The notes: a model not told the origin generated them from the sequence alone. 64,000 nt of DNA from Salinicoccus halitifaciens (GCF_021026095.1 NZ_JAJNCU010000005.1:62001-126000); one strand, 5' to 3'. Shown: positions 4,698-52,641, counted from the first letter of the stretch. Numbers and translations: made by a program.

Positions 4698-4715
4698 GTG
4701 AAATAACCTCCTTTA

Positions 4716-5657: not shown

Positions 5658-5743
5658 TCGTTTCTTTTCCTCCCTTTAAACGCCGAAAATATTATACAAC
5701 CATGTGTTCTATTATAACTGATTTGACGTTACAAATTAAGCAC

Positions 5744-6136
5744 TTACACACGGCGGCGTTTAGGTGGACGGCAACCATTGTGAGGTACAGGTGTCACATC
5801 TTTGATTGCTGTGATTTCCAGACCTGCAGATTGCAATGCACGGATTGCTGCTTCACGACCGGCACCTGGACCTTTGACTGTTACTTCAACTGTTTTCAGT
5901 CCGTGTTCCATAGCCGCTTTGGAAGCAGTTTCGGAAGCCATTTGAGCTGCGAATGGTGTTGATTTCTTAGAGCCTTTGAATCCTAACGCACCTGCAGATG
6001 ACCATGATAAAGCATTGCCGAATTCATCTGTGATCGTTACGATCGTATTGTTGAAAGTTGAGCGGATATGCGCAACTCCTGCGTCTATATTCTTTTTCAC
6101 CTTACGCTTACGACTTTGTTGTTGTCTACGAGCCAT
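5744..6136 (-). CDS. rpsK: 30S ribosomal protein S11
   Basis: Platform protein next to the mRNA exit. Conserved blocks are [28 protein letters not shown] and a GRE-containing [13 protein letters not shown]. The C-terminus [15 protein letters not shown] is invariant in bacteria. 130 aa; the upstream GGAGG gives the start at 6136. Between rpsM and rpoA, as in other Bacillales. Confidence 0.98.
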
Positions 6137-6159
6137 GATTACTCCTCCTTTACTTTAAA

Positions 6160-6525
6160 TTATTTCCTTTTGTTAGCTACTGTCTTGATTGGTCCTTTAC
6201 GTGTACGGGCATTGTTCTTTGTATGCTGTCCGCGTACCGGAAGACCACGACGGTGACGGATTCCTCTGTATGAAGCAATCTCCATCAAACGCTTGACGTT
6301 CAGGTTCTGCTCACGGCGAAGGTCACCTTCCACTTTATAACCGTCAACGACTTCACGGATCTTGTTCAGTTCTTCTTCAGTCAGGTCTTTTACGCGAGTC
6401 TGCTCAGAAACGCCGGCTTCTGCCAGGATCTGCTGCGCTCTTGTATTACCGATACCGAAAATATAAGTTAAAGAAATAACGACACGTTTGTCACGTGGTA
6501 CGTCAACTCCTGCTATACGAGCCAT
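6160..6525 (-). CDS. rpsM: 30S ribosomal protein S13
   Basis: Head protein that bridges to the 50S subunit and contacts P-site tRNA. It starts [15 protein letters not shown] and has [10 protein letters not shown] and the [24 protein letters not shown] region with a basic C-terminal tail. 121 aa, normal length. Confidence 0.98.
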
Positions 6526-6545
6526 ATGTTACACCTCCGTTTATT

Positions 6546-6689
<144 letters not shown>

Positions 6690-6908
6690 TTATTTAAAAC
6701 GATAAGTGATCCTGCCACGCGTCAGATCGTACGGTGACATTTCAACTGTAACTTTATCGCCAGGAAGAATACGTATATAGTTCATACGGATTTTACCTGA
6801 GACATGCGCCAAAATCTCATGTCCATTTTCCAGTTCAACTTTAAACATTGCATTCGGTAAAGTATCAAGTACTGTACCTTCAAGTTCAATTACATCCTGT
6901 TTACTCAC
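6690..6908 (-). CDS. infA: translation initiation factor IF-1
   Basis: Single OB-fold factor that occupies the A site during initiation. 72 aa, with [33 protein letters not shown] and the C-terminal [12 protein letters not shown], all conserved. An internal VEMSPYD block is also standard. It follows a 151-base gap after adk, where many bacilli carry map. Confidence 0.98.
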
Positions 6909-7059
6909 TTCAATTCCCCCTTTACAGTTTCATATTTCTATCGAAATACACTTCAGGTGAAGATCGCATTCACTTAACGTCAAATCAAAATATTGAACTC
7001 ATATATTTTTAAACTGCGTCTTGCCTTATTCACCTAAAAGTACTGTCTGGAGGTGAATA
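6909..7059 (-). other. infA-adk spacer with hairpin; map gene absent
   Basis: A 151-base gap without a gene. Directly after the adk stop, arms TATTCACCT and AGGTGAATA (7027-7035 and 7051-7059) are exact inverted repeats with a 15-base loop, but no U-run follows. I see no convincing promoter for infA. In Bacillus the methionine aminopeptidase gene lies here; staphylococci lack it at this position too. Confidence 0.5.
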
Positions 7060-9018
<1,959 letters not shown>

Positions 9019-9019
<1 letters not shown>

Positions 9020-9459
9020 TAAATCACCTCGTAGTTTCCGCCCTGTTCCTCAATTGCTTTGGCAGCTGAGCCAGAAAACTTATGAGCTTTAATTGTTAAT
9101 TTCTTTTCCAGAGTACCGTTGCCCAGCACTTTTACACCAGATTTTTCATTCTTAACAATACCATTTTCAGCCAAAAGCTCCGGAGTCACTTCCGTGCCGT
9201 CTTCAAAACGGTTAAGGTCACTCAAATTGACGATCGCATATTCCTTGCGATTGACATTCGTGAAACCACGTTTTGGAATACGACGGAATAAAGGAAGCTG
9301 TCCACCTTCAAATGTCAGACCTACGCCACCGCCTGAACGGGAGTTTTGTCCATCATGACCGCGGCCTGCTGTTTTACCGTTACCTGAAGACATACCGCGT
9401 CCAACACGCTTACGTGATTTGCGGGCGCCTTCAACTGGTTTCAATTCGTGTAATTTCAT
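9019..9459 (-). CDS. rplO: 50S ribosomal protein L15
   Basis: Late-assembly 50S protein. It begins [22 protein letters not shown], followed by the glycine-rich [20 protein letters not shown]. Two adjacent ATG codons are possible (9462 and 9459). I prefer 9459 because it gives the usual N-terminus and about 7 bases from the GGAGG. 146 aa. Confidence 0.97.
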
Positions 9460-9486
9460 CATCGCACCTCCTCTTTTATAATATCA

Positions 9487-9666
9487 TTAATTTTCTTCTA
9501 CAGTAACCAGGTGGCTGACTTTTTCGACTTGTCCTCTGATCTGAGGCGTATCTTCATGTTCAACTGTCTGGTTGACTTTTCTCAAACCAAGAGATGCCAC
9601 AGTCTTCTTCTGTGTCTCAGGTTTTCCGATAACACTTCTTTTGAGGGTGATTTTTATCTTTGCCAT
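9487..9666 (-). CDS. rpmD: 50S ribosomal protein L30
   Basis: A 59-aa protein between rpsE and rplO. The translation begins [19 protein letters not shown] and contains [21 protein letters not shown], the L30 signature. It ends [10 protein letters not shown]. The start at 9666 follows a GGAGG-like site. Too small for most length cut-offs but unambiguous by sequence and position. Confidence 0.97.
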
Positions 9667-9681
9667 TTATCTTTTCCCTCC

Positions 9682-10182
9682 TTAATTAGTAATCTCTTCT
9701 ACAGTTTTTCCACGAAGCTTCGCCACTTCTTCAGCACTCTTAAGTTCTGAAATACCTTGAAGTGTCGCACGCACAACGTTGATCGGCGTATTTGCACCAA
9801 GTGATTTGCTGAGGATGTCCGTGATTCCGGCAAGCTCAAGCACCGCACGCACCGGTCCACCTGCGATAACACCTGTACCAGGCGCTGCCGGCTTCATGAA
9901 CACTTGACCAGAGCTGAATCTGCCTATAATTTCGTGTGGGATCGTACCGTCCACCATTGGCACCTGTACCAGATCTTTCTTCGCAGCTTCAACTGCTTTC
10001 TTGATCGCTTCAGGCACTTCCTGTGCTTTACCTGTACCGAAACCTACACGGCCTTTTCTGTCTCCGACTACTACCAGTGCCGAGAAACGGAAACGACGTC
10101 CACCTTTTACAACTTTAGCAATACGGTTGATCGTCACAACGCGCTCTTCGAATTCTTGTACTCTATCATCTCTACGAGCCAT
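9682..10182 (-). CDS. rpsE: 30S ribosomal protein S5
   Basis: Decoding-fidelity protein (ram site). The double-stranded RNA-binding block [27 protein letters not shown] is followed by GKVGFG-like [20 protein letters not shown]. The C-terminal half carries [15 protein letters not shown] and [16 protein letters not shown]. 166 aa. Confidence 0.98.
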
Positions 10183-10202
10183 TTATATTTTACCTCCTTC
10201 TA

Positions 10203-10565
10203 TTAAAATTGTAAGCCGTTTTCACGTGCCGCATCAGCGAGTGCTTTCACACGCCCGTGATACAAATAACCGCCACGGTCAAATACTACATTTTCAATGC
10301 CTTTATCTTTCGCACGTTTTGCGATCAAAGTGCCGACTTCTGCAGCTGCATCTTTGTTGGATCCGACTTCCATTTTGAACTCTGGATCCTGGGATGACGC
10401 GCTGACAAGCGTCGTTTCACTGCTGTCATCGATCAGTTGTGCGTAAATGTGCTTATTTGAACGGTATACGTTCAGGCGTGGCTTTTCGCTTGTGCCAGCC
10501 AGATCTTTACGTATACGCTGGTGTCTCTTAAGACGCACTTTGTTTTTATCCACTTTAGAGATCAT
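10203..10565 (-). CDS. rplR: 50S ribosomal protein L18
   Basis: 5S rRNA-binding protein of the central protuberance. 120 aa, with [33 protein letters not shown] and the C-terminal [22 protein letters not shown]. Located between rplF and rpsE. Confidence 0.98.
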
Positions 10566-10590
10566 TGATGTTCACTCCTCACTTGTTTAA

Positions 10591-11127
10591 TTATTTACCG
10601 GTTTTACCTTCTTTACGACGAACAAGTTCGTCTTTGTAACGGATACCTTTACCTTTGTAAGGCTCCGGCGGACGTACAGAACGGATTTTCGAAGCCAGTG
10701 CTCCGACATACTCCTTGTTGATACCTTCCACCTTGACTTTAGTGTTGCCATCAACTGAAATCGTCAGCTCATCAGAAGGTTCAAACTCAACCGGGTGAGA
10801 AAGTCCTACGCTCAATACAAGCTTTTTACCCTGCATCTGTGCACGGTAACCGACACCTACAAGCTCAAGCTCCTTGCTGAAACCTTCGGATACACCCACC
10901 ACCATGTTATTGATCAATGCACGGGTTGTTCCGTGTACTGTACGGTGCTCCTTGGACTCACTCGGGCGGACGACCTGAAGTGTGTTCTCTTCCAGTTCAA
11001 ATGACATGTCTTCATTGAATGTGTCAACGAGTTCACCTTTCGGCCCTTTGACCGTAACTGTTGAACCGTCGATATCTATAGTTACATCTTTTGGAATTTC
11101 AATAATACGTTTACCAACACGACTCAT
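10591..11127 (-). CDS. rplF: 50S ribosomal protein L6
   Basis: 178-aa protein near the sarcin-ricin loop. Starts [16 protein letters not shown], with the duplicated beta domain region TVKGPKGEL. The C-terminal signature is [13 protein letters not shown]. Normal gene order after rpsH. Confidence 0.98.
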
Positions 11128-11151
11128 CTCGATTACACCTCCTAAAATAAA

Positions 11152-11550
11152 TTACCAAACGTATGCGAGTACTTCCCCGCCGATATTTCTTTTACGTGCT
11201 TCTTTATCTGTCAAAACACCTTCTGATGTTGAGATCAGGGCGATTCCAAGACCGTTCAGGACTTTTGGAAGTTCTTCCCTTTGAGCGTACACTCTAAGGC
11301 CTGGCTTTGAAATACGTTTCAGACCTGTAATAACTCTTTCGTTATTACCTCCATATTTCAAAAACATGCGGATGACGCCTTGCTTTTCATCTTCTATGAA
11401 TTCGACGTTCTTGACGAATCCTTCCGCTTTCAGGATAGAAGCGATCTCTTTTTTAATGTTTGATGCAGGGATTTCTAATGATTCATGTCTGACCATGTTC
11501 GCATTTCTGATGCGTGTCAGCATATCTGCAATTGGATCTGATACTGTCAT
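11152..11550 (-). CDS. rpsH: 30S ribosomal protein S8
   Basis: Primary 16S rRNA binder and, in many bacteria, translational repressor of the spc operon. 132 aa with [19 protein letters not shown] at the N-terminus. The C-terminus carries [19 protein letters not shown] and GGEVLAYVW. Confidence 0.98.
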
Positions 11551-11580
11551 TTAAATTTGCCTCCTTTCAATTTATGGCGA

Positions 11581-11766
11581 TTACCAGCTTGCTTTTTTGA
11601 CACCAGGGATCTGGCCTTTATAAGCAAGTTCACGGAAACATATACGGCATAGTCTGAATTGACGAATTACTGAATGCGGACGTCCACATCTTTCACAACG
11701 CGTGTATTCTCTCACTTTAAACTTTTGTTCTTTTTGCTGTTTAGCAATCATTGATTTTTTAGCCAC
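11581..11766 (-). CDS. rpsN: 30S ribosomal protein S14, zinc type (Z)
   Basis: 61-aa short S14 with a complete zinc ribbon: Cys24, Cys27, Cys40 and Cys43 (RCERCGRP and [10 protein letters not shown]). This is the essential zinc form encoded inside the spc operon in Firmicutes; any zinc-free long paralogue would be elsewhere. Confidence 0.97.
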
Positions 11767-11786
11767 ATTTTCGCCTCCTTATTAAC

Positions 11787-12326
11787 TTACTTTTGGAACG
11801 GCATTCCAAACTGAGTCAACAGTTCTCTTGCCTCTTCGTCTGTGTTTGCAGTAGTTACGATAACGATATCCATACCTCTGACTTTCGATACTTTATCATA
11901 GTCGATTTCAGGGAAGATCAGCTGTTCTTTGACACCGAGCGTATAGTTGCCGCGGCCGTCGAACGCTTTCTTCGAAACGCCTCTGAAGTCTCTTACACGT
12001 GGCAGGGAAACGGAGATGAGCTTATCCAGGAATTCATACATTCTTTCTCCGCGCAGTGTCACTTTCGCACCGATCGGCATACCTTCACGCAATCTGAAAG
12101 TCGCGATTGATCTCTTCGCTTTAGTGATGATCGGCTTCTGGCCGGTGATCGCTTCAAGCTCTTCCACTGCAGTATCCAGTACTTTTGCGTTCTGTACTGC
12201 GTCACCCACACCCATGTTGACGACGATTTTCTCTATTTCAGGCACTTCCATTACAGAAGAATAATTAAATTTATTTACAAGTTCTGTTTTGATTGATTCG
12301 TTGAATCTTTCTTTTAAACGAGCCAC
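11787..12326 (-). CDS. rplE: 50S ribosomal protein L5
   Basis: 5S rRNA-binding protein of the central protuberance. The start is GTG at 12326 (residues [10 protein letters not shown]), eight bases after GGAGG, which gives the standard 179 aa; the upstream in-frame ATG would overlap the ribosome site. Diagnostic blocks include [14 protein letters not shown] and [12 protein letters not shown], followed by [10 protein letters not shown]. Confidence 0.96.
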
Positions 12327-12353
12327 TTGAAATCCTCCTTTCACTTATACTGA

Positions 12354-12680
12354 TTAGTTGTTCTCAACTGCCGGTATTTCTTTACCGGATTTTACTGCTA
12401 CCCGTACTTTCGTTCCGTCCTCTTTGACCTCATAACGAATACGAGTACGTTCACCTGAGTCCGGATCGATGTGCATTACATTCGACACATGGATCGGTGC
12501 TTCAGTTTCCAGAATTCCGCCTTCCGGGTTCATCTGTGAAGGTTTTTGATGTTTCTTGACGATATTGACACCTTCGACAACGACTCTCTCTTTTGCAGGG
12601 ATCGCCTTAAGGATAGTTCCTTCTTTGCCTTTGTCCTTACCGCTGATTACGACGACTTTATCACCAGTTCTTACGTGCAT
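12354..12680 (-). CDS. rplX: 50S ribosomal protein L24
   Basis: Assembly-initiating 50S protein with an N-terminal KOW motif ([19 protein letters not shown]). [15 protein letters not shown] follows, with a C-terminal NVMHIDP. 108 aa, slightly longer than the common 103-105 because of an extra C-terminal tail. Confidence 0.97.
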
Positions 12681-12710
12681 GAAAATTGCACCTCCTTATA
12701 TAAATTGGGA

Positions 12711-13079
12711 TTATAATACTTCTGGTGCAAGTGAAATGATCTTCATGAAATTGCCTTCGCGCAGTTCACGGGCAACCGGACCGAAGATACGTGTACCTCT
12801 TGGACCTTTATCATCACGAATGATAACACATGCATTTTCATCAAATTTGATGTATGAACCATCTTCACGGCGGACGCCTGTTTTGGTTCTGACGATGACA
12901 GCTCTGACTACTTCACCTTTTTTGACAACGCCACCTGGTGTTGCATTTTTGACTGTCGCAACGATGACATCACCGATATTCGCAGTTTTACGTCCCGTAC
13001 CACCCAATACTTTGATGGTTAATACTTCACGCGCACCTGAGTTATCTGCAACTTTCAAGCGGGATTCCTGTTGGATCAT
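12711..13079 (-). CDS. rplN: 50S ribosomal protein L14
   Basis: 122-aa protein at the subunit interface. It begins [19 protein letters not shown] and has [15 protein letters not shown] and [10 protein letters not shown], all family-invariant. It forms part of the spc gene run. Confidence 0.98.
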
Positions 13080-13108
13080 GCGAATGGACCTCCTTTATCT
13101 TCGATAGT

Positions 13109-13372
13109 TTAAATAATTACTGATTCTTCAACGATTTCCACTAAACGGAAACGCTTAGTTTTTGATAACGGACGTGTTTCTTCGATACGGACCACATCGC
13201 CCATTTTCGCACTGTTCTTTTCATCGTGCGTTTTATATTTCTTGGAATATTTAACACGTTTGTTGATGATAGGGTGTCTTTTGTAAGTTTCAACAAGTAC
13301 CGTGATCGTTTTATCCATCTTGTCGGATACTACGCGGCCCTGGTAAACTTTACGTTCATTTTTTGTTTCCAC
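13109..13372 (-). CDS. rpsQ: 30S ribosomal protein S17
   Basis: OB-fold primary 16S rRNA binder. 87 aa with [32 protein letters not shown] and [16 protein letters not shown]. Confidence 0.98.
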
Positions 13373-13390
13373 TATTTTAACCCTCCTATA

Positions 13391-13600
13391 TTATTGATTG
13401 GCTCTTGCTTCCTCAAGCTCTCTCTCACGTACAGTTGTTTTCATTCTAGCGATAGATTTTCTGACTTGTTTGATACGAGCAGTGTTCTCTAGCTGACCTG
13501 TAGCTAGCTGAAAGCGTAGGTTGAAAAGTTCTTCTTTCAATTCTTTAACGTTTTCTTCAATTTCTGATGTCGTTAAATCACGGATTTCTTTAGCTTTCAT
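13391..13600 (-). CDS. rpmC: 50S ribosomal protein L29
   Basis: Tunnel-exit protein, a docking site for trigger factor and SRP. I place the start at 13600 ([16 protein letters not shown]), giving 69 aa, with AGGTGGTG upstream. The start overlaps the rplP stop by 11 bases. [20 protein letters not shown] is the family signature. Confidence 0.96.
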
Positions 13601-14024
13601 TCGTATCACCACCTAATTCTTCACGTCTTACGATTTTTGTTTTTACCGGAAGCTTGTGGCTCGCCAGACGAAGTGCCTCTTTAGCTACCTCTTCTTCAAC
13701 ACCAGAAACTTCAAACATTACACGGCCAGGTTTTACTACTGCAATCCATCCTTCAACTGCACCTTTACCTGAACCCATACGTACTTCCAAAGGTTTCTTC
13801 GTGTACGGTGTATGCGGGAAAATGTTGATCCATACTTTACCGCCACGCTTCATATAACGTGTCATTGCGATACGTGCTGATTCGATCTGTCTTGAAGTGA
13901 TCCATGCAGTCGTTGTCGCCTGCAGTCCATATTCACCAAATGATACTTGATTACCGCCTTTTGACTGACCTTTTGTATCCGGACGGTGCTGACGACGGTA
14001 CTTTACTCTTTTAGGTAATAACAT
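13590..14024 (-). CDS. rplP: 50S ribosomal protein L16
   Basis: Positions A-site tRNA; 144 aa. The start at 14024 ([15 protein letters not shown]) is the universal N-terminus and lies nine bases after AAGGAGG; a TTG two codons upstream is too close to it. [18 protein letters not shown] is diagnostic. Confidence 0.97.
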
Positions 14025-14039
14025 TATCAATTTCCTCCT

Positions 14040-14684
14040 TTACTTGTTATCTTTTTTGACAGGAAGAACTTCTCCACGGTAGATCCATACTTTGACGCCG
14101 AGCTTACCATAAGTCGTGTCTGCTTCTTCGTGTGCATAATCAATGTCTGCACGGAGAGTATGAAGTGGAACCGTTCCTTCGCTGTAACCTTCTGAACGCG
14201 CGATATCTGCGCCGCCCAAACGGCCGGAAACTTGTGTTCTGATTCCTTTGGCACCTGCTTTGATCGCTCTTCCAAGCGCCTGCTTTTGAGCTCTACGGAA
14301 TGACACACGGTTTTCAAGCTGGCGTGCGATGCTTTCTGCAACCAGTTTGGCATCCATATCAATTTTCTTAACTTCAACTACGTTGATGTGTACTCTTTTG
14401 CCGGTTAATTTGGATAAAGCTGAACGCAGTTTATCTATCTCGCTGCCGCCTTTACCAATGACCATACCAGGCTTGCCTGTATGAACAGCTATATTAACTC
14501 GGTTTGCCGCACGTTCGATTTCAACTTTTGAAATGGACGCGTCTTTAAGATTTGTCTCGATATATTCACGTATTCTCAAGTCTTCATGCAAGAGGTCTGC
14601 AAAGTCTTTATCTGCATACCATTTCGCTTCCCAATCACGGATGATGCCTGTACGAAGACCAATTGGATTAATCTTTTGACCCAA
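14040..14684 (-). CDS. rpsC: 30S ribosomal protein S3
   Basis: Part of the mRNA entry helicase. 214 aa with [19 protein letters not shown] and the KH-domain [17 protein letters not shown]. The C-terminal domain has [12 protein letters not shown] and [20 protein letters not shown]. Standard length and order. Confidence 0.98.
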
Positions 14685-14704
14685 ATTAATTCCCTCCTTA
14701 GTTT

Positions 14705-15100
14705 TTAAGCTTTCTCTTCAACTTTTTCGTTCTCTTCAGTTTCAACTGCCGCATCATCTTCAATCGCTGCCGGCTCTGCGACAACTACTGTGATGTGGCT
14801 TGTACGTTTGTTGATCTTCGTCGCACGGCCTTGTGCACGGGGACGGAAACGTTTAAGAGTCGGACCTTCGTCTGCATATGCTTCAGATACGATCAGGTGA
14901 TCGATGTCCATATCATAGTTATGTTCTGCGTTCGCCACTGCCGAGTTGATCAGCTTTTCGACGATCGGCGCTGTTCTTTTATTTGTATGCTTCAGTATTG
15001 AGATTGCTTCCCCGACTTCTTTGCCGCGGATCAGATCCATGACAAGTCTGACTTTACGTGGTGCAATCCTGACTGTTTTAGCAACTGCTTTCGCTTGCAT
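14705..15100 (-). CDS. rplV: 50S ribosomal protein L22
   Basis: Its hairpin lines the polypeptide exit tunnel and can mutate to macrolide resistance. 131 aa with [18 protein letters not shown] and the hairpin end [20 protein letters not shown]. The C-terminus extends past the usual 112-117 aa as an acidic tail rich in Glu and Ala. Confidence 0.97.
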
Positions 15101-15133
15101 GTTCGGTTCCTCCTTTATAGCGGATTATTTCTA

Positions 15134-15412
15134 TTATCTGCCTGTTCTCTTATCATTATTGCCGTGACCTTTGAAAGTCCTTGTCGGTGCGAACTCTCCG
15201 AGCTTATGTCCGACCATATCTTCTGTAATATAAACCGGTACATGTTTGCGGCCATCGTACACTGCAATTGTGTGTCCAATAAAATTAGGGAAAATTGTTG
15301 AACGGCGTGACCATGTTTTTATAACGCTCTTCTTGCTCGTTTCATTTAAGTTTTCAACCTTCTTCATCAAATGATCATCGACGAAAGGTCCTTTTTTAAG
15401 ACTGCGAGTCAT
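15134..15412 (-). CDS. rpsS: 30S ribosomal protein S19
   Basis: Head protein, 92 aa from the start at 15412 ([18 protein letters not shown]). This start follows GGAGGCGCC and is the universal N-terminus; an upstream in-frame codon adds an unrelated sequence. [20 protein letters not shown] and [14 protein letters not shown] are diagnostic. Confidence 0.97.
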
Positions 15413-15473
15413 TAGGGCGCCTCCTTTATCAAAATTGTGTGCGGAACTGAGTCCGCACAATTTTTAATTTAAT

Positions 15474-16307
15474 TTATTTTTTCTTACGGCTTCTGACGAT
15501 CAGCTTATTCGAACGGTTTTTGCCTCTTCTTGTCTTCTTGCCAAGGGTCGGTTTGCCCCATGGAGACATAGGTGACGGACGTCCGATAGGTGCACGGCCT
15601 TCACCACCACCGTGTGGGTGGTCGTTAGGGTTCATGACGGAACCACGTACTGTAGGGCGTTCGCCTTTCCATCTTGAACGGCCTGCTTTACCGATGTTGA
15701 TCAGTTCGTGCTGTTCGTTGCCGACTGCACCGACTGTTGCACGGCAAGTCGCAAGGATCATTCTCACTTCACCGGATTTCAGTCTGACGAGAACGTATTT
15801 GCCCTCTTTACCGAGAACCTGTGCACGTGCGCCTGCTGATCTTGCCAGCTGGCCGCCGCGGCCTGGTTTAAGCTCGATGTTGTGGACCATGGTACCAACA
15901 GGAATGTCCTGAAGTGCCAATGCGTTACCAGGTTTGATATCCGCATCCGGACCACTCATGATTTCAGTGCCCACCGTTACACCTTTAGGTGCGATGATGT
16001 ATTTTTTTTCGCCGTCTGCGTAGTGCACAAGTGCAATGTTCGCTGAACGGTTCGGGTCATACTCGATTGTTGCCACTTTACCAGGAACGCCGTCTTTAAT
16101 ACGTTTGAAGTCGATCACTCTGTACTGGCGCTTATGTCCGCCGCCTTTATGGCGTACGGTCATCCGGCCCTGGTTGTTACGGCCCGCTTTTTTCGGCAGC
16201 GGCTGTAATAGTGACCGTTCCGGAGTCGTCGAAGTGACTTCGGCAAAATCCGAGCCAGTCATATTACGACGAGCGTTTGTGGTTGGCTTGTACTTTTTTA
16301 TTGCCAT
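15474..16307 (-). CDS. rplB: 50S ribosomal protein L2
   Basis: Peptidyl-transferase-proximal protein, 277 aa. [21 protein letters not shown] is the Gram-positive N-terminus. [18 protein letters not shown] and the catalytic-region [18 protein letters not shown] are conserved. Confidence 0.98.
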
Positions 16308-16338
16308 CTCGTTTTACCTCCTTAATGGTAAGTCGCTC

Positions 16339-16611
16339 CTAGAATATGTCTATGGAGCCTTCTTTTAATGTTACGATCGCTTTTCTTCTTCTATTAGTAT
16401 AGCCTTCATAGCGACCCATACGTTTTTTCTTCGGTTTGACGTTCATTATGTTCACTTTGTCAACTTTGACGCCGAAGATTTCTTCGATCGCGTATTTGAC
16501 TTGCGTTTTGTTCGCTTTGACGTCCACATCGAATGTGTACTTGTCCATCTGCATCAAATCTGCTGAACGTTCAGTAATGACCGGACGTTTGATAATATCA
16601 CGAGCATCCAT
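16339..16611 (-). CDS. rplW: 50S ribosomal protein L23
   Basis: Tunnel-exit chaperone dock, 90 aa, with [35 protein letters not shown] and [20 protein letters not shown]. Its ATG overlaps the rplD stop by one base. Confidence 0.97.
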
Positions 16612-17231
16612 TACAGAAGTACCTCCTCTGCTTTAGTGATTGCACCTTCCGTAAAGATAACACGGTCAGCAGAAAGGATATCCAGTACGTTGAGCCCTTC
16701 CGGTGTAAGCACCGTCACACCCTGCAGGTTGCGGGATGAAAGCTGTACGTTGACATCTTCATTTTCAAGGACTAACAGGACTTTTCTGTCTGCCTCAAGA
16801 TTTTCCAGAATTGCGAGGAAATCTTTTGTTTTCGGTGCGTCTAATGAAATGTTGTCCACTACTGTCAGGACATCTTCATTCACTTTTGCCGACAACGCTG
16901 AACGGAGTGCCAGACGGCGCATCTTTCTCGGCATCTTGTAGGAATAGCTTCTTGGCGTCGGTCCGAATACTACGCCACCGCCTCTGAACTGCGGCGCACG
17001 GATGGTACCCTGACGCGCATTACCTGTTCCTTTTTGTCTGAATGGCTTCCTGCCTCCGCCACGGACCGCTGAACGGTTTTTCACCGCATGCGTGCCACGG
17101 CGCTGTGAAGCCTGCTGCAACTGAACCGCTTCGAAAAGCACGTGCTGATTTGGTTCGATACCAAATATCTCCTGGTTCAATTCGATTGAATTCACTTTAG
17201 TTCCGTCTTTAGATAAAACATCGATTGCCAT
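16611..17231 (-). CDS. rplD: 50S ribosomal protein L4
   Basis: Tunnel protein and, in some bacteria, autorepressor of the S10 operon. 206 aa with the loop [20 protein letters not shown] and the Rossmann-like C-terminal part. [20 protein letters not shown] is diagnostic. Confidence 0.98.
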
Positions 17232-17261
17232 GTGTTAAATCCTCCCTTCTTGAATTTTTAT

Positions 17262-17924
17262 TTATTTAACACTTTTTTTAGTTGCTGCTGAAATTTTTAC
17301 ATATCCTTTACGAGGGCCCGGCACGTTACCTTTAATGAGTAACACGTTGCGCTCGGCATCCACACGTACGATTTCAAGATTTTGCAATGTGATGGTCTGA
17401 CCGCCCATTTGACCTGGCAATTTCTTACCTTTGAAAACTCTTGCCGGGTCTGCAGCTGCCGCCATCGCACCAGGTGACCTGTGGAAATGGGAACCGTGGC
17501 TCATCGGGCCGCGCGACTGGTTATGACGCTTGATTGCACCCTGGAAACCTTTACCTTTTGAAGTTCCTGTCACATCTACAAAGTCCCCTGCTTCAAATGT
17601 ATCTGCAGTGACTTCTTGACCGATTTCGAATTCTTCAACGTTCAAGTTCTTGAATTCGCGAATGAAGCGCTTAGGGAGTACTCCTGAAGCTTTTGCATGT
17701 CCTGTTTCAGCTTTGTTCGCATACTTGTTGGATCTTGCACCTTCAAAGTATTCACGCTTGTCGTCAAAGCCGATCTGAACCGCATTATAGCCGTCAGTCT
17801 CTTCAACTTTCTTCTGTACTACCACGTTACCTGCTGTTTCTACTACCGTTACGGGAATCAACTCGCCGTTTTCACCGAAAACCTGAGTCATTCCAACTTT
17901 TTTACCTAAGATTCCTTTGGTCAT
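17262..17924 (-). CDS. rplC: 50S ribosomal protein L3
   Basis: Early-assembly protein, 220 aa. [20 protein letters not shown] is the N-terminus. [18 protein letters not shown] and [18 protein letters not shown] form the loop that reaches the peptidyl transferase centre. Confidence 0.98.
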
Positions 17925-46186: not shown

Positions 46187-47373
46187 GCAGGATAAAATAC
46201 CACGCTTCATTTCTGCATGCCTTCCTTGTCGAAATGGCATTGCTGTTATCGGTATATCTCTTTTTGAACATCCATAATTTGCCCGGCGACCGGAACCATG
46301 TGCTGTTCTTCCTCGCTGTTGTGCTGAGCCAGTACATCGCAGGCCATCTGATTGCAGCAAGGCTGCCGGTGAAATATATTTATTTACTGGTGCCCATAAC
46401 CCTCGCTGCCGCGCTCTTCAGCGGTGATTATTTCTTATCCGCACTGCTCATCAGCACCATTCCGGTGTGGCGCCTTGAACAGCTGCACTACAGCCTGGAT
46501 GAATCAGTTGCCCCCGGCACGGTGATCGCCGGTCTCCTCTGGCTCATCATCATCACGATGATCTCCACGCCCGAAACCGGTGCGCACATCGATACTTTCA
46601 ATATCATATTCATCGCCTCACTTGCAGGATACGTTGCAGGGAGGATCCTTACATTAGCGTTGGACAGCGGGTACGGTAAGCGGCCTTTTATCAGGCTGAC
46701 TTCGTTCTTCATCCTGGCCTTCATAACCCTGAGCATTGTACTGATGCAGGTGTACCGGTTTGCTGTGTTCACTTTGAGCTATGCGGTCATCTTCCTCCTT
46801 AATGCAATGGTGTTCATGCTGAGGCCGTTTTTTGACTTTCTGGAAGGCGTGGAACTGGATTACCCGGAAGATGCCTTCCAGGAGGAGGAAGCGGAACTCG
46901 ACGGCTATCAGACACCGGATGAAGTGACCTCAGAGGCGGGCCAGGTGCTCGGCATCCCCTTTGGGATGATCATCCTCACGCTGGTGGCGGCTGCAGTCAT
47001 CTTCGCCGTCTATTCATATTTCAGGAAGCGGGAAGCCCGCACCCGGGAAATGCATGTACAAGAGACGCCGCACACGGTGGACCATAAGCCCGTGAGTGCG
47101 CCGGCATCCAAAAAAGCGCCTCCCGGCAAAGCCCGCAGGATGTACTTTGATTTTGAGAAATGGGCCGCTTCAAAAGGATACGGCAGGTACACCGATGAGA
47201 CGATCGAGCAGTGGTTCAAACGGCTCCGGCTCCACGAGCACACTTCCATATCAAATCTCGGGCATTACCAAGCCATGCGTTATAAGGATAAAGAATTGAC
47301 ACACGAAGAACTCCAGTTTTTAAAGTCGTGCATCAAAGAATTTAAAGATATAATTCATAAGAAAGTAATATGA
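46183..47373 (+). CDS. multi-spanning membrane protein, third gene of the moxR-DUF58 operon
   Basis: 396 aa from GTG at 46183 (SRIKYHASFLHAFLVEM), behind AAGGAGGCGGTGAC, overlapping the DUF58 stop. About six to eight hydrophobic segments in residues 15-220, an acidic stretch at about 225-250, another segment at about 260-280, then a soluble C-terminus. That tail (FDFEKWAASKGYGRYTDETIEQWFKRL) resembles DUF4129. In many bacteria this position holds a transglutaminase-like membrane protein; no Cys-His-Asp transglutaminase core is visible here. Confidence 0.72.
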   Translation: MSRIKYHASFLHAFLVEMALLLSVYLFLNIHNLPGDRNHVLFFLAVVLSQYIAGHLIAARLPVKYIYLLVPITLAAALFSGDYFLSALLISTIPVWRLEQLHYSLDESVAPGTVIAGLLWLIIITMISTPETGAHIDTFNIIFIASLAGYVAGRILTLALDSGYGKRPFIRLTSFFILAFITLSIVLMQVYRFAVFTLSYAVIFLLNAMVFMLRPFFDFLEGVELDYPEDAFQEEEAELDGYQTPDEVTSEAGQVLGIPFGMIILTLVAAAVIFAVYSYFRKREARTREMHVQETPHTVDHKPVSAPASKKAPPGKARRMYFDFEKWAASKGYGRYTDETIEQWFKRLRLHEHTSISNLGHYQAMRYKDKELTHEELQFLKSCIKEFKDIIHKKVI

Positions 47374-47460
47374 TATAGGACATGGAAAAAATCATTAGAA
47401 AGCATTTATCCCATTCTATGGTCAACATGTTTTGTTGATAAGAATGTAATTGTCAAAGAG

Positions 47461-47503
47461 AAAAAAGGCGACTTCAAATTGATAATCCATTTGAAGTCGT
47501 CCT
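47461..47503. terminator. bidirectional terminator
   Basis: GGCGACTTCAAAT (47467-47479) pairs with ATTTGAAGTCGTC (47489-47501). On the minus strand a six-U run follows at 47461-47466, so it best serves the minus gene; on the plus strand a weaker T-rich tail follows. Confidence 0.85.
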
Positions 47504-47584
47504 TATTTATACGTTAAGGAAATTTCTAAATAAAAACCTTTAAATTGTCTGTACCGTCAATTAAAGCCCTATTATTTTTATAAT

Positions 47585-48685
47585 CTATCCTGGAAAGCTC
47601 GGCATCGGATCCTTATATGTGGCCAACTCCTTTTCAAGATGTTTTAATGTTGGTGTCAAGTTTAAGAGAAAATAAGTTTCCCTCAGCCTCCTGGATGGAT
47701 GACTGCCCTGCAGATACCCGGCTCCTCCATAATACATCATATCCCCATGGGCTGCCTTGACAGCTAAATTACTTATATCAAGTTTTAGTTGCAATAATGC
47801 TTTTAAATCATTTCCAAGGTCATCTGTTCTCAGCAAAATCTCCAATTGATATTTTAATTCGTCCCATTGCCGCTTTATATCCTCTGGTTGCACTGGCAGA
47901 TACTCGTTAATGTCCCCTTGTCTCTTTGGCGCTTTCCACATTGATTTAATGGCAGCTTTAATCACTCCTAAACCGAGTGGTGTCTGATAAAGAACGAAAA
48001 ATGGCCGGATCTTATCTATAAAATCTGAGACCTCTGCAGCAATTACCCACTCGTCAGGGATAAATACTTCATCGAACCTGCAGCCATAAGTCGCACTTCC
48101 GTTTACACCCATATAACCCCTTTTCTCTTTTAACTTTAATCCATCTGCATTAGATGGCACAAAAACCATGACTTCGCTGTTCTCATCTAATGAGGCCACG
48201 GCGCCGAACCAATGATTTTCATTTAAGTTTGAAACAGATGGCAATCCACCCGAAATCACATAGCCGTTGGCCTGTCTTTGGGCTCTTAAATGAAGCGGCT
48301 CTAAACCCGAATAATACTTCATAGGATTTGAGAGCCCCGTTGCACCAAGGAAATCTCCTCTCTCAAGTGAAGGCAATATTTCGTTCTTTAAATATTGGTT
48401 ATCACTGTTCCGCAAGTAAGTCAGAGCAGCGAGATGACACCATAAATTGAATGCGGTGGTCATACATGTTTCAGCAGTTTTTTCGACGATCAATATTTCT
48501 CTGGCAAGTAATTCATTTTTTGTTAAATTATCCGATCTGTATAACCCGGCTTTGCCCAGCTCAAGCAAATAATCTTCTGCATAATATGCATCGGCATCTA
48601 TTTTCTTAACCACCGGTTTTAGATAGGACTTTATAATCGAATCTAAAACATCTTCGGTTTGATTTTCTTCAATAACCATACTCAT
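47585..48685 (-). CDS. acyl-CoA-dehydrogenase-like flavoprotein (DszC/SfnC-like)
   Basis: 366 aa, start at 48685 (MSMVIEENQT) after AAAGGGGG. The family pattern is seen in CMTTAFNLWCHLAALTYL, GATGLSNPMKYYSG, VISGGLPSVSNLNENHWFGAVAS and GYMGVNGSATYGCRFDEVFIPDEWV, with helical C-terminal GDMMYYGGAGYLQGSHPSRRLRE. The usual catalytic glutamate of acyl-CoA dehydrogenases is not evident. A flavin monooxygenase role like DszC/SfnC is therefore plausible, in line with the neighbouring sulfonate-type importer. Co-directional with the DUF4242 gene 48 bases upstream. Confidence 0.75.
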   Translation of the reverse strand: MSMVIEENQTEDVLDSIIKSYLKPVVKKIDADAYYAEDYLLELGKAGLYRSDNLTKNELLAREILIVEKTAETCMTTAFNLWCHLAALTYLRNSDNQYLKNEILPSLERGDFLGATGLSNPMKYYSGLEPLHLRAQRQANGYVISGGLPSVSNLNENHWFGAVASLDENSEVMVFVPSNADGLKLKEKRGYMGVNGSATYGCRFDEVFIPDEWVIAAEVSDFIDKIRPFFVLYQTPLGLGVIKAAIKSMWKAPKRQGDINEYLPVQPEDIKRQWDELKYQLEILLRTDDLGNDLKALLQLKLDISNLAVKAAHGDMMYYGGAGYLQGSHPSRRLRETYFLLNLTPTLKHLEKELATYKDPMPSFPG

Positions 48686-48733
48686 CCCCACCCCCTTTGA
48701 CTTACCTGTCTAACATATGAATTACGTTAACAT

Positions 48734-49264
48734 CTACGCGTCATTAATTTCTGTAATGGAATCAATTGGTGTTTTAACCGCTTTGCGTGCCCTTACTACA
48801 GATTCTTCATCCGGGGCATCATAGAAACACAGACACTTTGACATATCTTCGCACACGTATGTTCTGGAAAAGGAAACTTCAGGTACTTCTGAATAGTGAA
48901 CAGAATTTTTCTTTTTGCGATTTAAATAATCATCCATAGTAAGCTCTGCCGGAATATTCCACTCGACAAGGTAATTGACCTGCTCTGCTTGTTTTTTCAC
49001 TTCTTCAAGGTCTTTGCCCACCAGTCTCACTTCTTTGACGAGCTGGATGACAACATCCTGTCCTTTCAAGCTTCTCTCAACAGTCTCGGCATCTTCTCCC
49101 TCAAGAATGAAGAAAACTCTGGAAAAATCTTTAGAAACCTGCACTTCAATCAGGTTGAGATTATTTTTTTGCAGAATTTCTTGCATAACCGATACTTTCT
49201 TCTCAAAATCACTTTTGCTGTCAACCGGGCGGTTAAATTCTGCTTCAATTAAAAATAGTGGCAT
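48734..49264 (-). CDS. protein with two DUF4242-like ferredoxin-fold repeats
   Basis: 176 aa. The C-terminal half (about 95-172: YLVEWNIPAELTMDDYLNR, RTYVCEDMSKCLCFYDAPDEESVVRA, TPIDSITEI) matches DUF4242, a ferredoxin-like fold that includes a nickel-binding actinobacterial protein. The N-terminal half (FLIEAEFNRPVDS, EVQVSKDFSRVFFILEGEDAETVERS) has the same element order, so it looks like an internal duplication. First gene after the shared motif promoter; ATG at 49264 behind AAGGAGAGG. Function unknown. Confidence 0.7.
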   Translation of the reverse strand: MPLFLIEAEFNRPVDSKSDFEKKVSVMQEILQKNNLNLIEVQVSKDFSRVFFILEGEDAETVERSLKGQDVVIQLVKEVRLVGKDLEEVKKQAEQVNYLVEWNIPAELTMDDYLNRKKKNSVHYSEVPEVSFSRTYVCEDMSKCLCFYDAPDEESVVRARKAVKTPIDSITEINDA

Positions 49265-49296
49265 CAATGACCTCTCCTTATAGAAAATTCAGTAAT

Positions 49297-49314
49297 TTAA
49301 TTCATACTATTTAA
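49297..49314. promoter_or_regulatory. candidate HxlR operator, copy A
   Basis: TTAATTCATACTATTTAA, an imperfect inverted repeat, lies between the DUF4242 and HxlR genes. The same sequence recurs inverted at 52444-52461 upstream of the ABC ATPase gene, differing at only three positions. Confidence 0.55.
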
Positions 49315-49337
49315 CTTGGTTTTAACTTTAAGGTTAG

Positions 49338-49360
49338 TTTATTATACTAACTTCAAAAAA
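49338..49360 (-). promoter_or_regulatory. conserved promoter element of the DUF4242 gene
   Basis: Minus strand TTTTTTGAAG, three bases, then TATAAT (49341-49346). It shares 21 of 23 positions with 52475-52497. There is no good -35 at 17 bp, so the conserved T-rich part may bind an activator. Around the -10, GTTAGT and ACTAAC form a small inverted repeat. Confidence 0.5.
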
Positions 49361-49436
49361 TCAACTTATTACTTAGAATTAAAATATCTTTTTTATGATA
49401 TGATTTAAATTACCAGTAGATTTGGAGGGAATAATT

Positions 49437-49865
49437 GTGAAGACTACATATGATTTACCTTGTAATATTGCACAGACATTAAATATCCTCGGTGATAGAT
49501 GGACACTTCTGATTGCCCATGAAATTTTGGTAGGAAATATGACATTCACCAGTATCAAGAACAATTTGAAGGGCATCTCTTCCAACTTGCTTTCAGATAG
49601 GTTGAAATACCTGGAAGAGACTGGTCTGATTGAATCCAATTTATATTCCGCCCATCCTCCCCGCTATAAATATACATTGACCGAAAGCGGCAGAGAACTT
49701 GAACATGTTTTTAATTCCATGATTCTCTGGGGAGAGCAGCATTTGAAAAAATGCTATAAGAACCTTGTACATGAAAAATGCGGTCACAGCGTTGAAATTA
49801 CATACTACTGTGCGCATTGTGATGAAAATACAAATGACTTGTCTGTGGTTAAAGTGAGGGACTAA
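49437..49865 (+). CDS. HxlR-family transcriptional regulator
   Basis: 142 aa from GTG at 49437, behind TTGGAGGG. Winged helix of the HxlR type: CNIAQTLNILGDRWTLLIAHEIL, then FTSIKNNLKGISSNLLSDRLKYLEETGLI and the wing PRYKYTLTESG. The C-terminus has a cluster of cysteines and histidines (HEKCGHSVEITYYCAHCDE) that could bind metal or sense redox state. Divergent from DUF4242 and flanked by two operons with matching promoter motifs, so it is the likely local regulator. Confidence 0.85.
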   Translation: MKTTYDLPCNIAQTLNILGDRWTLLIAHEILVGNMTFTSIKNNLKGISSNLLSDRLKYLEETGLIESNLYSAHPPRYKYTLTESGRELEHVFNSMILWGEQHLKKCYKNLVHEKCGHSVEITYYCAHCDENTNDLSVVKVRD

Positions 49866-49884
49866 TGCCGATTGATTCAGCTCC

Positions 49885-50643
49885 CTATGCCATCCCCCAT
49901 TGCTTTTCGATCCATTTTTCCAACAGGCGGATCAGTCTGTCCAACAATAAGCCACTGACCCCGATGAAGATTATCCCGGCGAGCACTAAATCTAACCGCA
50001 ATAGGTTTCTTGCATCTACAATCAAGTAACCGAGTCCGGATTGGGCACCGACCATTTCTCCTGAAACAAGGAATATCCAAGCTGTCCCCACACCGATATG
50101 AAGCCCGTTCGCTATAGAAGGAAAAGCGGCAGGTAAAATCACCTTCCACATTAAGTATGGCTGCTTTATTTCTAAATTTTTGGCTAACTTCAAATATGTT
50201 TCATCCACACTTTTTACACCGGATACAGTAGTCAGCAGTATCGGGAAAAAAGCGGCGATAAAGATGATTACTATGGCCGGTGCACTCCCAATACCAAACC
50301 ACAGGACGATAAAGGGCGACCATGCAATTGGTGCAACGGGTCTCAGCACTTGAACAACAGGGTCGACGACATTCCATAAGCGAGTCATCCTTCCCAGGAA
50401 CAGACCCAGTAGTATAGCGATGATTGCTGCTGAAAGATATCCGGTTAAAAACCTGAACATACTTATATTCAGATGCTCAAATAAGGACCCATCAGCAACT
50501 AAAGAAACAATCGCCTGCGCGACAGTTAATGGCGGCGGGAATAATGCTTCCTCAATATCCGTCATCCAAATCGCCACCTGCCATATAACAACGACGGCCA
50601 CGACAGCATAAATGACATTCATGGATTTATTCAGTACCTTCAT
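49885..50643 (-). CDS. SsuC/TauC-like ABC importer permease
   Basis: 252 aa, six hydrophobic segments. The EAA loop KLAKNLEIKQPYLMWKVILPAAFPSIANGLHIGVGTAW is typical of the nitrate/sulfonate/taurine permease family. It follows the binding-protein gene by three bases. Convergent with hxlR. Confidence 0.85.
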   Translation of the reverse strand: MKVLNKSMNVIYAVVAVVVIWQVAIWMTDIEEALFPPPLTVAQAIVSLVADGSLFEHLNISMFRFLTGYLSAAIIAILLGLFLGRMTRLWNVVDPVVQVLRPVAPIAWSPFIVLWFGIGSAPAIVIIFIAAFFPILLTTVSGVKSVDETYLKLAKNLEIKQPYLMWKVILPAAFPSIANGLHIGVGTAWIFLVSGEMVGAQSGLGYLIVDARNLLRLDLVLAGIIFIGVSGLLLDRLIRLLEKWIEKQWGMA

Positions 50644-50646
50644 TAT

Positions 50647-51603
50647 TTATCCAACCTCATCCCACAGTGATACATCTACAAATTCCTCGTAAGTTGGCGG
50701 ATTTTCAGATAATCCCATCTCCTGCATATACACTCTTAAGTCATTATATGAATCTTCGTCGATCTTTAACTCATCATAGGAAATCCAATCCATTGATAAA
50801 TCCATCACTTCTTCATCCACTTGCATGAATTCAGAGGAAACTTGGTGAACATGCTCGTCTTTCTCATCAGACTGAGCGGCCGCTTTTAAATAATCACTCA
50901 TAAAATCCTGCGCCAGCCCCCTGTTATTCTTGATAAAATCCCCGTGCAGCACAATCGCGCAATCCAGTGAATTTTCCCAAAGATGGTCGGATTGATACAA
51001 TACTTTTCCGCTGTCCATGACGACAGATTGGGCACCGAAAGGTTCTGCAACAACATAACCCTTGATTCGACCTTCTGCCAGTGCAGCAGGCATTTCAGCC
51101 GGCGGCATTTCAACAGTATTTATATCTTCGTAGTCGATACCTTCCTCTTTCAGCATCAGATATAATAGAACATTGTGAGTAGATATCTTATGCGGAATTG
51201 CGAATGTTTCTCCTTTTAAATCACTTATTTCATTAATATCTTTAGCACCCATCAGAACATTCCCTTCCCGATGCCCCAGCGCAACCCCTCTTAAATCGAT
51301 ACCCAGTTCATTCGCTTTCATGGCCACCGTAATCAAAGTAGAAGCCCCATCAATTCTTCCAGTGTTCAAAGCATCCATGAGGTCCGGCCAGGAAGAAAAT
51401 CGCACAAGTTCAATATTATAATCAGCATTAGTGCTTTCCAACATATCTTCCTGCATGAATAATGGCACTGCATGAGTGATCGGCATATAACCAATTTTAA
51501 TTAAGGGTTTTCCATCTCCCTCTTCGCTTGATGCTTGATTGCTGCATCCATTCATTATGAGTGCTAAGCAAATAGTTAAAATTCCTGTCAAAGCCTTCTT
51601 CAT
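50647..51603 (-). CDS. SsuA/NMT1-like substrate-binding lipoprotein
   Basis: 318 aa with a lipoprotein signal ending IMNGC (Cys20). The mature part begins IKIGYMPITHAVPLFMQEDML and has SWPDLMDALNTGRIDGAST and FAIPHKISTHNVLLYLMLKE, typical of NMT1/SsuA-type binding proteins for sulfonates, nitrate or pyrimidines. Context (DszC-like flavoprotein) favours an organosulfur compound, but this is inference. Confidence 0.82.
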   Translation of the reverse strand: MKKALTGILTICLALIMNGCSNQASSEEGDGKPLIKIGYMPITHAVPLFMQEDMLESTNADYNIELVRFSSWPDLMDALNTGRIDGASTLITVAMKANELGIDLRGVALGHREGNVLMGAKDINEISDLKGETFAIPHKISTHNVLLYLMLKEEGIDYEDINTVEMPPAEMPAALAEGRIKGYVVAEPFGAQSVVMDSGKVLYQSDHLWENSLDCAIVLHGDFIKNNRGLAQDFMSDYLKAAAQSDEKDEHVHQVSSEFMQVDEEVMDLSMDWISYDELKIDEDSYNDLRVYMQEMGLSENPPTYEEFVDVSLWDEVG

Positions 51604-51629
51604 GTAATTTCTCTCCTCTCTTGTGAACT

Positions 51630-52415
51630 CTAGATGTTAAATTCAATCGGCGGTTTAGTCATACTTAAATGAAACTCTTCTAATATCAAGCTGCGGTAAT
51701 GCTGGAATTCACTGCCACTGCGATCCCTTGGTTTGTATGTATCTATCTTAATCTCTTTTTGAATATGGCCTGGCTCTTTTCCCATTATGAGGATCCTGTC
51801 TGAGAGATAAATCGCCTCATCGATATCATGTGTCACCAATACAATTGTAGTTTGGGCTTTCTTTTGAATCTTTAGCAACTCGTCCTGCAAATAATAACGG
51901 TTAATTGTATCCAGAGCTCCAAAAGGTTCATCCATGAGTAATAATTCAGGCTCAATTGCTAAAGCCCGGGCAATGGCAACACGCTGCTGCATGCCACCGG
52001 ATAATTGCCTGGGAAAACGATCCAGCTTATCATCTAGACCGACCATTTCAATATAGTATTTAGCTTTTTTTCTTATCTCAGCTTTAGTAAGCCCTGTATT
52101 CTCCAGGCCAAGTTCTACATTTTTCAAAACAGAACGCCAGGGAAGCAGACCGTAATTTTGAAATAGCATTACACCCTTCCTGCTCGATTCCTTTACCTCT
52201 TCACCATCGAAAAGAACATGCCCTGTGTCTTTAGTTTCAAAACCTGCGATTATATTTAGCAAAGTACTCTTGCCACAGCCACTCTGCCCCAAAATTGAAA
52301 CTATTTCGCCTTTTTTGATATCAAAGCTGATATCTTGTAAAACCAATTCAGATTTACCCTTATTACTGAAGCTTTTAAATACCTTATTAACGCATACCAA
52401 CAGTGATTCATCCAT
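51630..52415 (-). CDS. SsuB/TauB-like ABC importer ATPase
   Basis: 261 aa. Walker [10 protein letters not shown], signature [16 protein letters not shown], Walker [13 protein letters not shown]. This is the form of the nitrate/sulfonate/taurine group. First gene of the ATPase-binding protein-permease operon; ATG at 52415 behind GGAGGAAATATA. AT-richer than the genes outside the block. Confidence 0.87.
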
Positions 52416-52443
52416 TATATTTCCTCCGCTTCATTAATCCTAT

Positions 52444-52461
52444 TTAAATAGTATGAATTAG
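52444..52461. promoter_or_regulatory. candidate HxlR operator, copy B
   Basis: TTAAATAGTATGAATTAG, the inverse of copy A at 49297-49314. It sits between the -10 and the ABC ATPase start codon. Confidence 0.55.
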
Positions 52462-52474
52462 TGTTATTAGTCAC

Positions 52475-52497
52475 TTTATTATACTTCCTTCAAAAAA
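52475..52497 (-). promoter_or_regulatory. conserved promoter element of the ABC operon
   Basis: Same element as at 49338-49360: minus strand TTTTTTGAAG, three bases, TATAAT (-10 at 52478-52483). It ties the ABC operon to the DUF4242-flavoprotein operon. Confidence 0.5.
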
Positions 52498-52532
52498 ACA
52501 ACCTCTATTTAATTGTTCCAAAAAAAGAACCA

Positions 52533-52588
52533 ATAAAAAACCTCCTAAGTTTACAGAGGAAATAAAAACTTTGTAAACTTAAGAGGTT
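52533..52588 (-). terminator. glnA terminator
   Basis: Minus strand AACCTCTTAAGTTTACA (52572-52588) pairs with TGTAAACTTAGGAGGTT (52539-52555), with one mismatch, and a T-rich run follows. Confidence 0.85.
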
Positions 52589-52641
52589 AAATTTTAATTA
52601 TAAGGTTTTTTAAGCCTTTATTAAAACCAGGCTTTTATTCA

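Follow-up and report, generated by a model that had tools for sequence, protein, structure and literature searches.

We analysed 64,000 nucleotides of the Salinicoccus halitifaciens genome (GCF_021026095.1, NZ_JAJNCU010000005.1:62001-126000; this whole stretch is the window, and positions are counted from its first letter) and found six intact genes within an inserted segment at 47366-52627. Two minus-strand operons, one for an ATP-binding cassette (ABC) importer and one for a double DUF4242 protein and a flavoprotein, are separated by a plus-strand HxlR regulator gene. The block is probably a laterally acquired organosulfur-acquisition cassette, in which import is followed by flavin-dependent release of sulfur in a form other than sulfite, under HxlR and CymR-like control. 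Several lineages provide support for sulfur acquisition; what compound is taken up, how it reacts, what the DUF4242 protein does and in which oxidation state sulfur is released are matters of inference. The substrate-binding lipoprotein, permease and ATPase would import a small organosulfur anion, and the flavoprotein and double DUF4242 protein would jointly oxidise the organosulfur compound, freeing its sulfur as sulfide, as a thiol or in some other form that CysK could use, which would feed cysteine synthesis. An earlier account made from the DNA alone (the sequence-only reading) had proposed a catabolic module; the module stands, and sulfur acquisition fits better than catabolism.

Gene content and lateral origin of the block

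The genes lie where the sequence-only reading had placed them. The importer operon runs from 52415 down to 49885 (minus strand) in the order ATPase, substrate-binding protein (SBP), permease. The ATPase (51630-52415, minus) is of the SsuB/TauB type and matches PF00005 with 124 bits, its best NCBIfam models remaining under their cut-offs. The SBP (50647-51603, minus), a lipoprotein of the SsuA/TauA/NrtA type with the lipobox MNGC, matches PF13379 (131 bits) and PDB entry 3un6 (E 9e-69), and the permease (49885-50643, minus), of the SsuC/TauC type, matches PF00528. The second operon, with the double DUF4242 gene followed by the flavoprotein gene, occupies 49267 down to 47585 (minus), and the HxlR gene between the two operons (49422-49865, plus, likely start GTG at 49437) matches PF01638 with 82.1 bits against a gathering cut-off of 20.8.

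An alignment of the double DUF4242 protein was scanned against 84,980 species genomes, and 339 relatives were confirmed, the best 80 of them nearly all from Bacillales. When all open reading frames (ORFs) of these 80 loci were clustered, the same families recurred: the flavoprotein in 79, the ATPase in 76, the SBP and DUF4242 in 75 each, the permease in 74 and HxlR in 65, while the next commonest neighbour family was found in only 6. The majority of the loci have exactly the layout of the window, and dozens of Bacillales genera keep the cassette together. Because the six genes are conserved together in 80 loci, a co-occurrence that the sequence-only reading had proposed as a check, we regard them as a functional unit. 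No flavin reductase, sulfurtransferase or other conserved extra neighbour recurred in the clustered ORFs of the Bacillales loci. In two Bacillus-type loci cysK lies directly 3' of the flavoprotein gene on the same strand (L116:9924 and L150:8438).

The block is compositionally foreign, and the higher AT content described by the sequence-only reading is real. Its GC content is 37-43% against 49-55% in the adjoining kilobases, and GC at third codon positions (GC3), computed within the window, is 0.38-0.48 in the six cassette genes (0.41 overall) against 0.64 +/- 0.04 in 21 flanking ORFs, with disjoint ranges (Mann-Whitney p = 7e-6). A second AT-rich stretch at 4296-17924 is a series of minus-strand ORFs, most of them short and most with low GC3 (0.32-0.63), so that low GC alone is not unique within the window. 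Both blastn and the GC3 contrast support an inserted segment (47366-52627, no strand assigned), which sits between a transglutaminase-like gene and glnA, in their convergent terminator. The nearest congener is 92% identical up to 47365 and 93% identical from 52628 (blastn, locus L060 of genome G012) and has only 10 bp in between; in five of five congeners the site is empty and the transglutaminase-like gene adjoins glnA. The block therefore lies outside the conserved neighbourhood, as proposed earlier. The strong terminators described at its edges correspond to two terminator-like inverted repeats (no strand assigned), one 3' of the flavoprotein gene (47461-47507, 23-nt arms, 83% complementary) and one upstream of the importer operon (52539-52588, 20-nt arms, 90% complementary). 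A palindrome 80% similar to the one after the flavoprotein gene (47461-47508) lies at another place in the genome (G000:C11:20055-20102).

Among 33 genomes of the family, an intact flavoprotein was found only in this host. In the tree of the double DUF4242 protein, the window copy forms one clade with those of Oceanobacillus senegalensis and O. rekensis (support 100/89) and stands far from the copies of staphylococci, even though the host and the staphylococcal-type genus share an order. Because the window copy is nested inside Oceanobacillus, and in view of the empty site and GC3, the lateral acquisition suggested by the sequence-only reading is upheld, and gain from an Oceanobacillus-like donor appears to be the simplest reading. 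An origin within a mobile element was considered and rejected: the block contains no transposase or integrase, and its ends bear no long direct repeat. Elsewhere in the family, a genome of a different genus carries a 78-nt remnant of the flavoprotein 3' end (L054:8842-8928, in G025:C3; 81% DNA identity, 29 amino acids at 90%), which looks like the trace of a lost cassette.

Relatives in staphylococci and a cyanobacterial plasmid

The double DUF4242 protein was found in 37 genomes of a staphylococcal-type genus, of the same order as the host, and the set DUF4242-ATPase-SBP-permease-flavoprotein was complete in 17 of the 19 loci of this type examined in full. We assigned the genus from the agreement of its gene order and annotation with published Staphylococcus aureus genes, and on this basis its form appears to be the S. 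aureus operon NWMN_0115-0119 / SA0165-SA0169 / SAOUHSC_00135-00139. The operon belongs to the CymR regulon, and NaHS lowers its expression 12-34 fold; Peng et al. described it as a putative taurine importer (PMC5480029). SA0165 has been named a DUF4242 protein (PMC8158120), SA0167 was annotated as SrpL-like (PMC2697999), and SAOUHSC_00135, 00136, 00138 and 00139 are annotated as SrpF, SsuB, SsuC and acyl-CoA dehydrogenase (PMC9440087). All five structural genes of the window have adjacent homologs in this operon, with identities of about 52-57% for the double DUF4242 protein, 42-47% for the ATPase, 40-46% for the SBP, 48-54% for the permease and 33-37% for the flavoprotein. However, the staphylococcal genes form a single block with DUF4242 first, the flavoprotein last and no HxlR gene, whereas in the window two operons are split by HxlR. 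The Srp names denote sulfur-regulated plasmid proteins of Synechococcus. Two staphylococcal-type loci, one with the double DUF4242 gene but without ABC genes (L056, G079) and one with this gene alone (L041, G137), look like partial decay of the cassette.

The same five families occur contiguously on one strand in plasmid pANL of Synechococcus elongatus PCC 7942, in a region termed the plasmid's sulfur metabolism cluster (PMC9239245). The pANL DUF4242 protein is 41% identical to that of the window, and the set stands beside cysK, gamma-glutamyltranspeptidase, catalase and an Rrf2 regulator; it differs from the window in lacking HxlR and in its order (DUF4242-flavoprotein-ATPase-SBP-permease). 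The sequence-only reading had considered the module undescribed as a unit, which does not hold for the five-gene form, already on record in S. aureus. For the HxlR-linked form no description was found in the open-access literature; this form, its shared promoter element, the CymR-like box downstream of it and the gap in sulfite reduction of the host are what is new here. The proposed link to sulfur is supported by the CymR-regulated S. aureus operon, the pANL cluster and the cysK neighbours, but the substrates suggested with it (taurine, sulfonates and dimethyl sulfone) are doubtful in this host, because its genome lacks any siroheme sulfite/nitrite reductase domain.

Promoter elements and regulation

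Upstream of both operons lies a conserved promoter/operator element that is probably an HxlR site, at 49338-49365 (minus) for the DUF4242-flavoprotein operon and at 52475-52502 (minus) for the importer operon, with 46.4 and 36.0 bits, respectively, against the family position weight matrix (PWM). The two window promoters have GTTGNTTTTTTGAAGNNAGTATAATAAA in common, of which the genome contains exactly two copies with up to 3 mismatches allowed; it could set a -35 box (TTGATT/TTGTTT) and, 17 bp downstream, a -10 box. Among promoters of loci with HxlR, 107 of 124 gave more than 15 bits with a 39-nt matrix, as did 2 of 20 promoters of HxlR-less loci and none of 13 staphylococcal promoters, which differ in this from the window. 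Part of the HxlR-bearing set served to train the matrix, with DUF4242-side training regions from HxlR-bearing loci only, while the staphylococcal promoters and the HxlR-less DUF4242 promoters are independent of the training. The element tracks HxlR, and HxlR probably binds it. About 24-34 bp downstream of the element, ATNGGAATT occurs in 25 of 136 regions, compared with 1.9 in shuffles. We propose that HxlR represses both operons through the 39-nt element, which would overlap each promoter, and that it may release the DNA on sensing the substrate or a reactive intermediate.

The HxlR protein has an N-terminal Cys (CNIAQTLNILGDRW) and a C-terminal Cys/His motif (HEKCGH...CAHC). Since the HxlR proteins YodB and HypR are redox or electrophile sensors, the conserved N-terminal Cys could also suit a detoxification or stress cassette, in which HxlR senses an electrophile or quinone that the flavoprotein and the DUF4242 protein destroy, with import serving salvage. 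The pairing of proteobacterial flavoprotein relatives with OsmC, a peroxide-related fold, would agree with such a role. An SBP-dependent importer would be odd for it, however, and the links to CymR and to sulfur clusters favour nutrition, so we consider detoxification very unlikely.

Organosulfur acquisition would also accord with a second, weaker signal. A PWM built from 16 of the ATNGGAATT sites, all from other Bacillales loci, gave CymR-like boxes in the DUF4242-flavoprotein promoter (49296-49321, minus, 9.8 bits, a weak match and the third best of the window) and in the importer promoter (52432-52457, minus, 12.6 bits, also weak and the best of the window). In each of the seven staphylococcal promoters scanned, where CymR control is published, it independently recovered sites of 9-24 bits, some 65-78 bp upstream of the DUF4242 gene. 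The CymR box ends in GGAATT, and "CymR-like" is to be read as a lead. CymR may bind at these boxes, and the box about 30 bp downstream of the HxlR element would then add repression when cysteine is plentiful. Control by a riboswitch or T-box was rejected, as no Rfam match was obtained in the window block or the staphylococcal loci. S-adenosylmethionine riboswitches near two other cassettes (L114:4232-4348 and L107:11017-11118) lie outside the cassette and on other transcripts, and are another sign of a sulfur-gene setting.

Enzymes, importer and the fate of sulfur

The AlphaFold2 model of the flavoprotein (47585-48691, minus; predicted local distance difference test, pLDDT, 93.9) has the acyl-CoA dehydrogenase fold. 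It matches many members of this fold with Z of about 40 at 13-20% identity, including isovaleryl-CoA dehydrogenase (Z 40, 16% identity, VIA-align) and 8sgr (Z 40.0, root-mean-square deviation 2.5, 353 residues aligned). No NCBIfam model was matched over its cut-off, and the protein belongs to an unnamed subfamily. The position of the catalytic Glu in acyl-CoA dehydrogenases, after the RDA motif, is established, and the invariant Thr346 of the flavoprotein would fall at this place, as judged by spacing from the R-x-x-R-E-A motif. A true acyl-CoA dehydrogenase of the host was sought for residue mapping, and the YEGT motif was found in none of the host's relatives. The fold is shared with the group of SfnB, DszC and 3-sulfinopropionyl-CoA desulfinase, several members of which act on sulfur compounds, but the desulfinase structure is only about 15% identical, and the score against the SfnB model TIGR04022 (32.3 bits) is far under its cut-off (430.9). 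The earlier label "DszC-like" was thus too specific; DszC was absent among the fold matches listed, though such a likeness is conceivable. Another host protein of this fold (G000:C5:211816-212883, L190) is nearer to SfnB (125.7 bits), still under the cut-off.

The double DUF4242 protein (48734-49267, minus, probable start ATG at 49264) consists of two predicted ferredoxin-like domains (AlphaFold2 pLDDT 89). PF14026 covers residues 99-174 (90.7 bits, cut-off 28.5), and the N-terminal half was recognised by fold only (SCO4226, Z 10.3 on residues 3-84). A search of PDB sequences gave no significant match; SCO4226, a nickel-binding DUF4242 protein, is among the best domain-level structure matches and shares the PF14026 domain and ferredoxin-like fold. 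Its sites use His, Asp, Glu and Ser (PMC4186839). The window protein differs from it in its two fused domains, its sulfur-linked operon and Cys145 and Cys147 of the C-terminal domain, which are invariant columns in alignments A1 and A3 across four phyla (Firmicutes, cyanobacteria, Thermomicrobia and Actinomycetes).

The importer type invites comparison with the SsuEADCB and TauABCD sulfonate systems, and with it the view that SsuABC-like import is followed by a DszC/SfnB-like oxygenase, dependent on FMNH2 or FAD, that frees sulfite from sulfonates or sulfones. The SBP, permease and ATPase do resemble Ssu/Tau subunits, the SfnB model weakly matches 30 of 38 relatives, and the taurine label of Peng et al. 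points the same way. Nevertheless, the subunits remain under the family cut-offs (SBP, 111.8 bits against 163.5 for SsuA TIGR01728 and 58.2 against 304.25 for TauA TIGR01729; permease, 153 against 342 for TauC), and the block lacks an LLM alkanesulfonate monooxygenase, TauD and a flavin reductase; SsuD was found neither in the block nor, over its cut-off, in the host genome. The top NCBIfam matches of the ATPase and permease are SaoA and SaoP of the selenocysteine-assisted organometallic transporters, but the SaoA, SaoP and SaoX equivalog models gave 267.8, 163.5 and 61.9 bits, under their cut-offs of 360, 295 and 300. Moreover, PF01077, the siroheme sulfite/nitrite reductase domain, was not found in the host genome (99.75% complete), in a search whose control was positive in 11 of 14 genomes. 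Because no siroheme sulfite reductase is available, simply turning a sulfonate into sulfite would lead nowhere in the host, though two CysK proteins exceed their cut-off. Among 31 cassette-bearing genomes, CysI was over its cut-off in 10 and close to it in one more; the other 20 have no CysI over or near the cut-off, five of them showing weaker matches, possibly to ferredoxin-type reductases, and in the rest sulfite would need another route. Desulfonation to sulfite is therefore doubtful, and the lack of a siroheme reductase leads us to prefer release of sulfur at the sulfide or thiol level, although sulfite might also be exported as such or handled by a non-siroheme route.

Several points weigh against organosulfur acquisition under CymR-like control. 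The CymR-like boxes of the window score 10-13 bits, compared with 20-30 for the training sites; CymR control is published for S. aureus and not for this host, among whose three Rrf2 proteins CymR was not identified. Studies of GraSR, glucose/CcpA and Teg58 also report changes of the S. aureus operon, so that its regulation is not purely sulfur-related. About one third of the tested cassette genomes have CysI, and in these a sulfite-releasing version may exist. To our knowledge, neither a substrate nor an enzyme activity has been assigned to any member of the cassette. If the proposal is true, a cassette found in Bacillales, staphylococci, a cyanobacterial plasmid and other phyla would supply cysteine synthesis from organosulfur in hosts often lacking sulfite reductase, DUF4242 proteins would gain a function and an HxlR regulator a target operon and operator, and the naming of the S. 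aureus operon as a "taurine importer" should be revisited.

In Proteobacteria, flavoprotein relatives stand beside the same ABC genes, with OsmC replacing DUF4242 and with rhodanese or rubredoxin-FAD reductase added. A bolder version of sulfite-bypassing assimilation, which we regard as unlikely, is that the flavoprotein cleaves a C-S bond of the imported compound in the absence of the usual catalytic Glu and that the C-x-C motif of the double DUF4242 protein (Cys145/Cys147) carries the sulfur to cysteine synthesis, a place that OsmC and rhodanese would fill in Proteobacteria. Three loci of the OsmC type (L183, L184 and L186) are plasmids of Pseudosulfitobacter, Methylocystis and Marinobacter, with rhodanese, rubredoxin-FAD reductase or cyanase genes.

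Finally, the cassette might transport and metabolise a sulfur-free compound, with an SBP of the nitrate or thiamin-precursor type and an acyl-CoA dehydrogenase-type enzyme. The SBP families PF13379/NMT1 include binders of nitrate, bicarbonate and pyrimidine precursors, the nearest folds of the flavoprotein are acyl-CoA dehydrogenases, and thiM adjoins one Pseudonocardia copy. Yet sulfur regulation or sulfur-gene neighbours occur in several lineages, and acyl-CoA ligase, ETF and CoA genes do not recur around the 80 loci, which makes this reading extremely improbable. The Pseudonocardia copy lies on a plasmid (L102:3268-14143) and is followed by genes for hydroxyethylthiazole kinase (thiM), an LLM oxidoreductase and rhodanese, with a second ABC set upstream.

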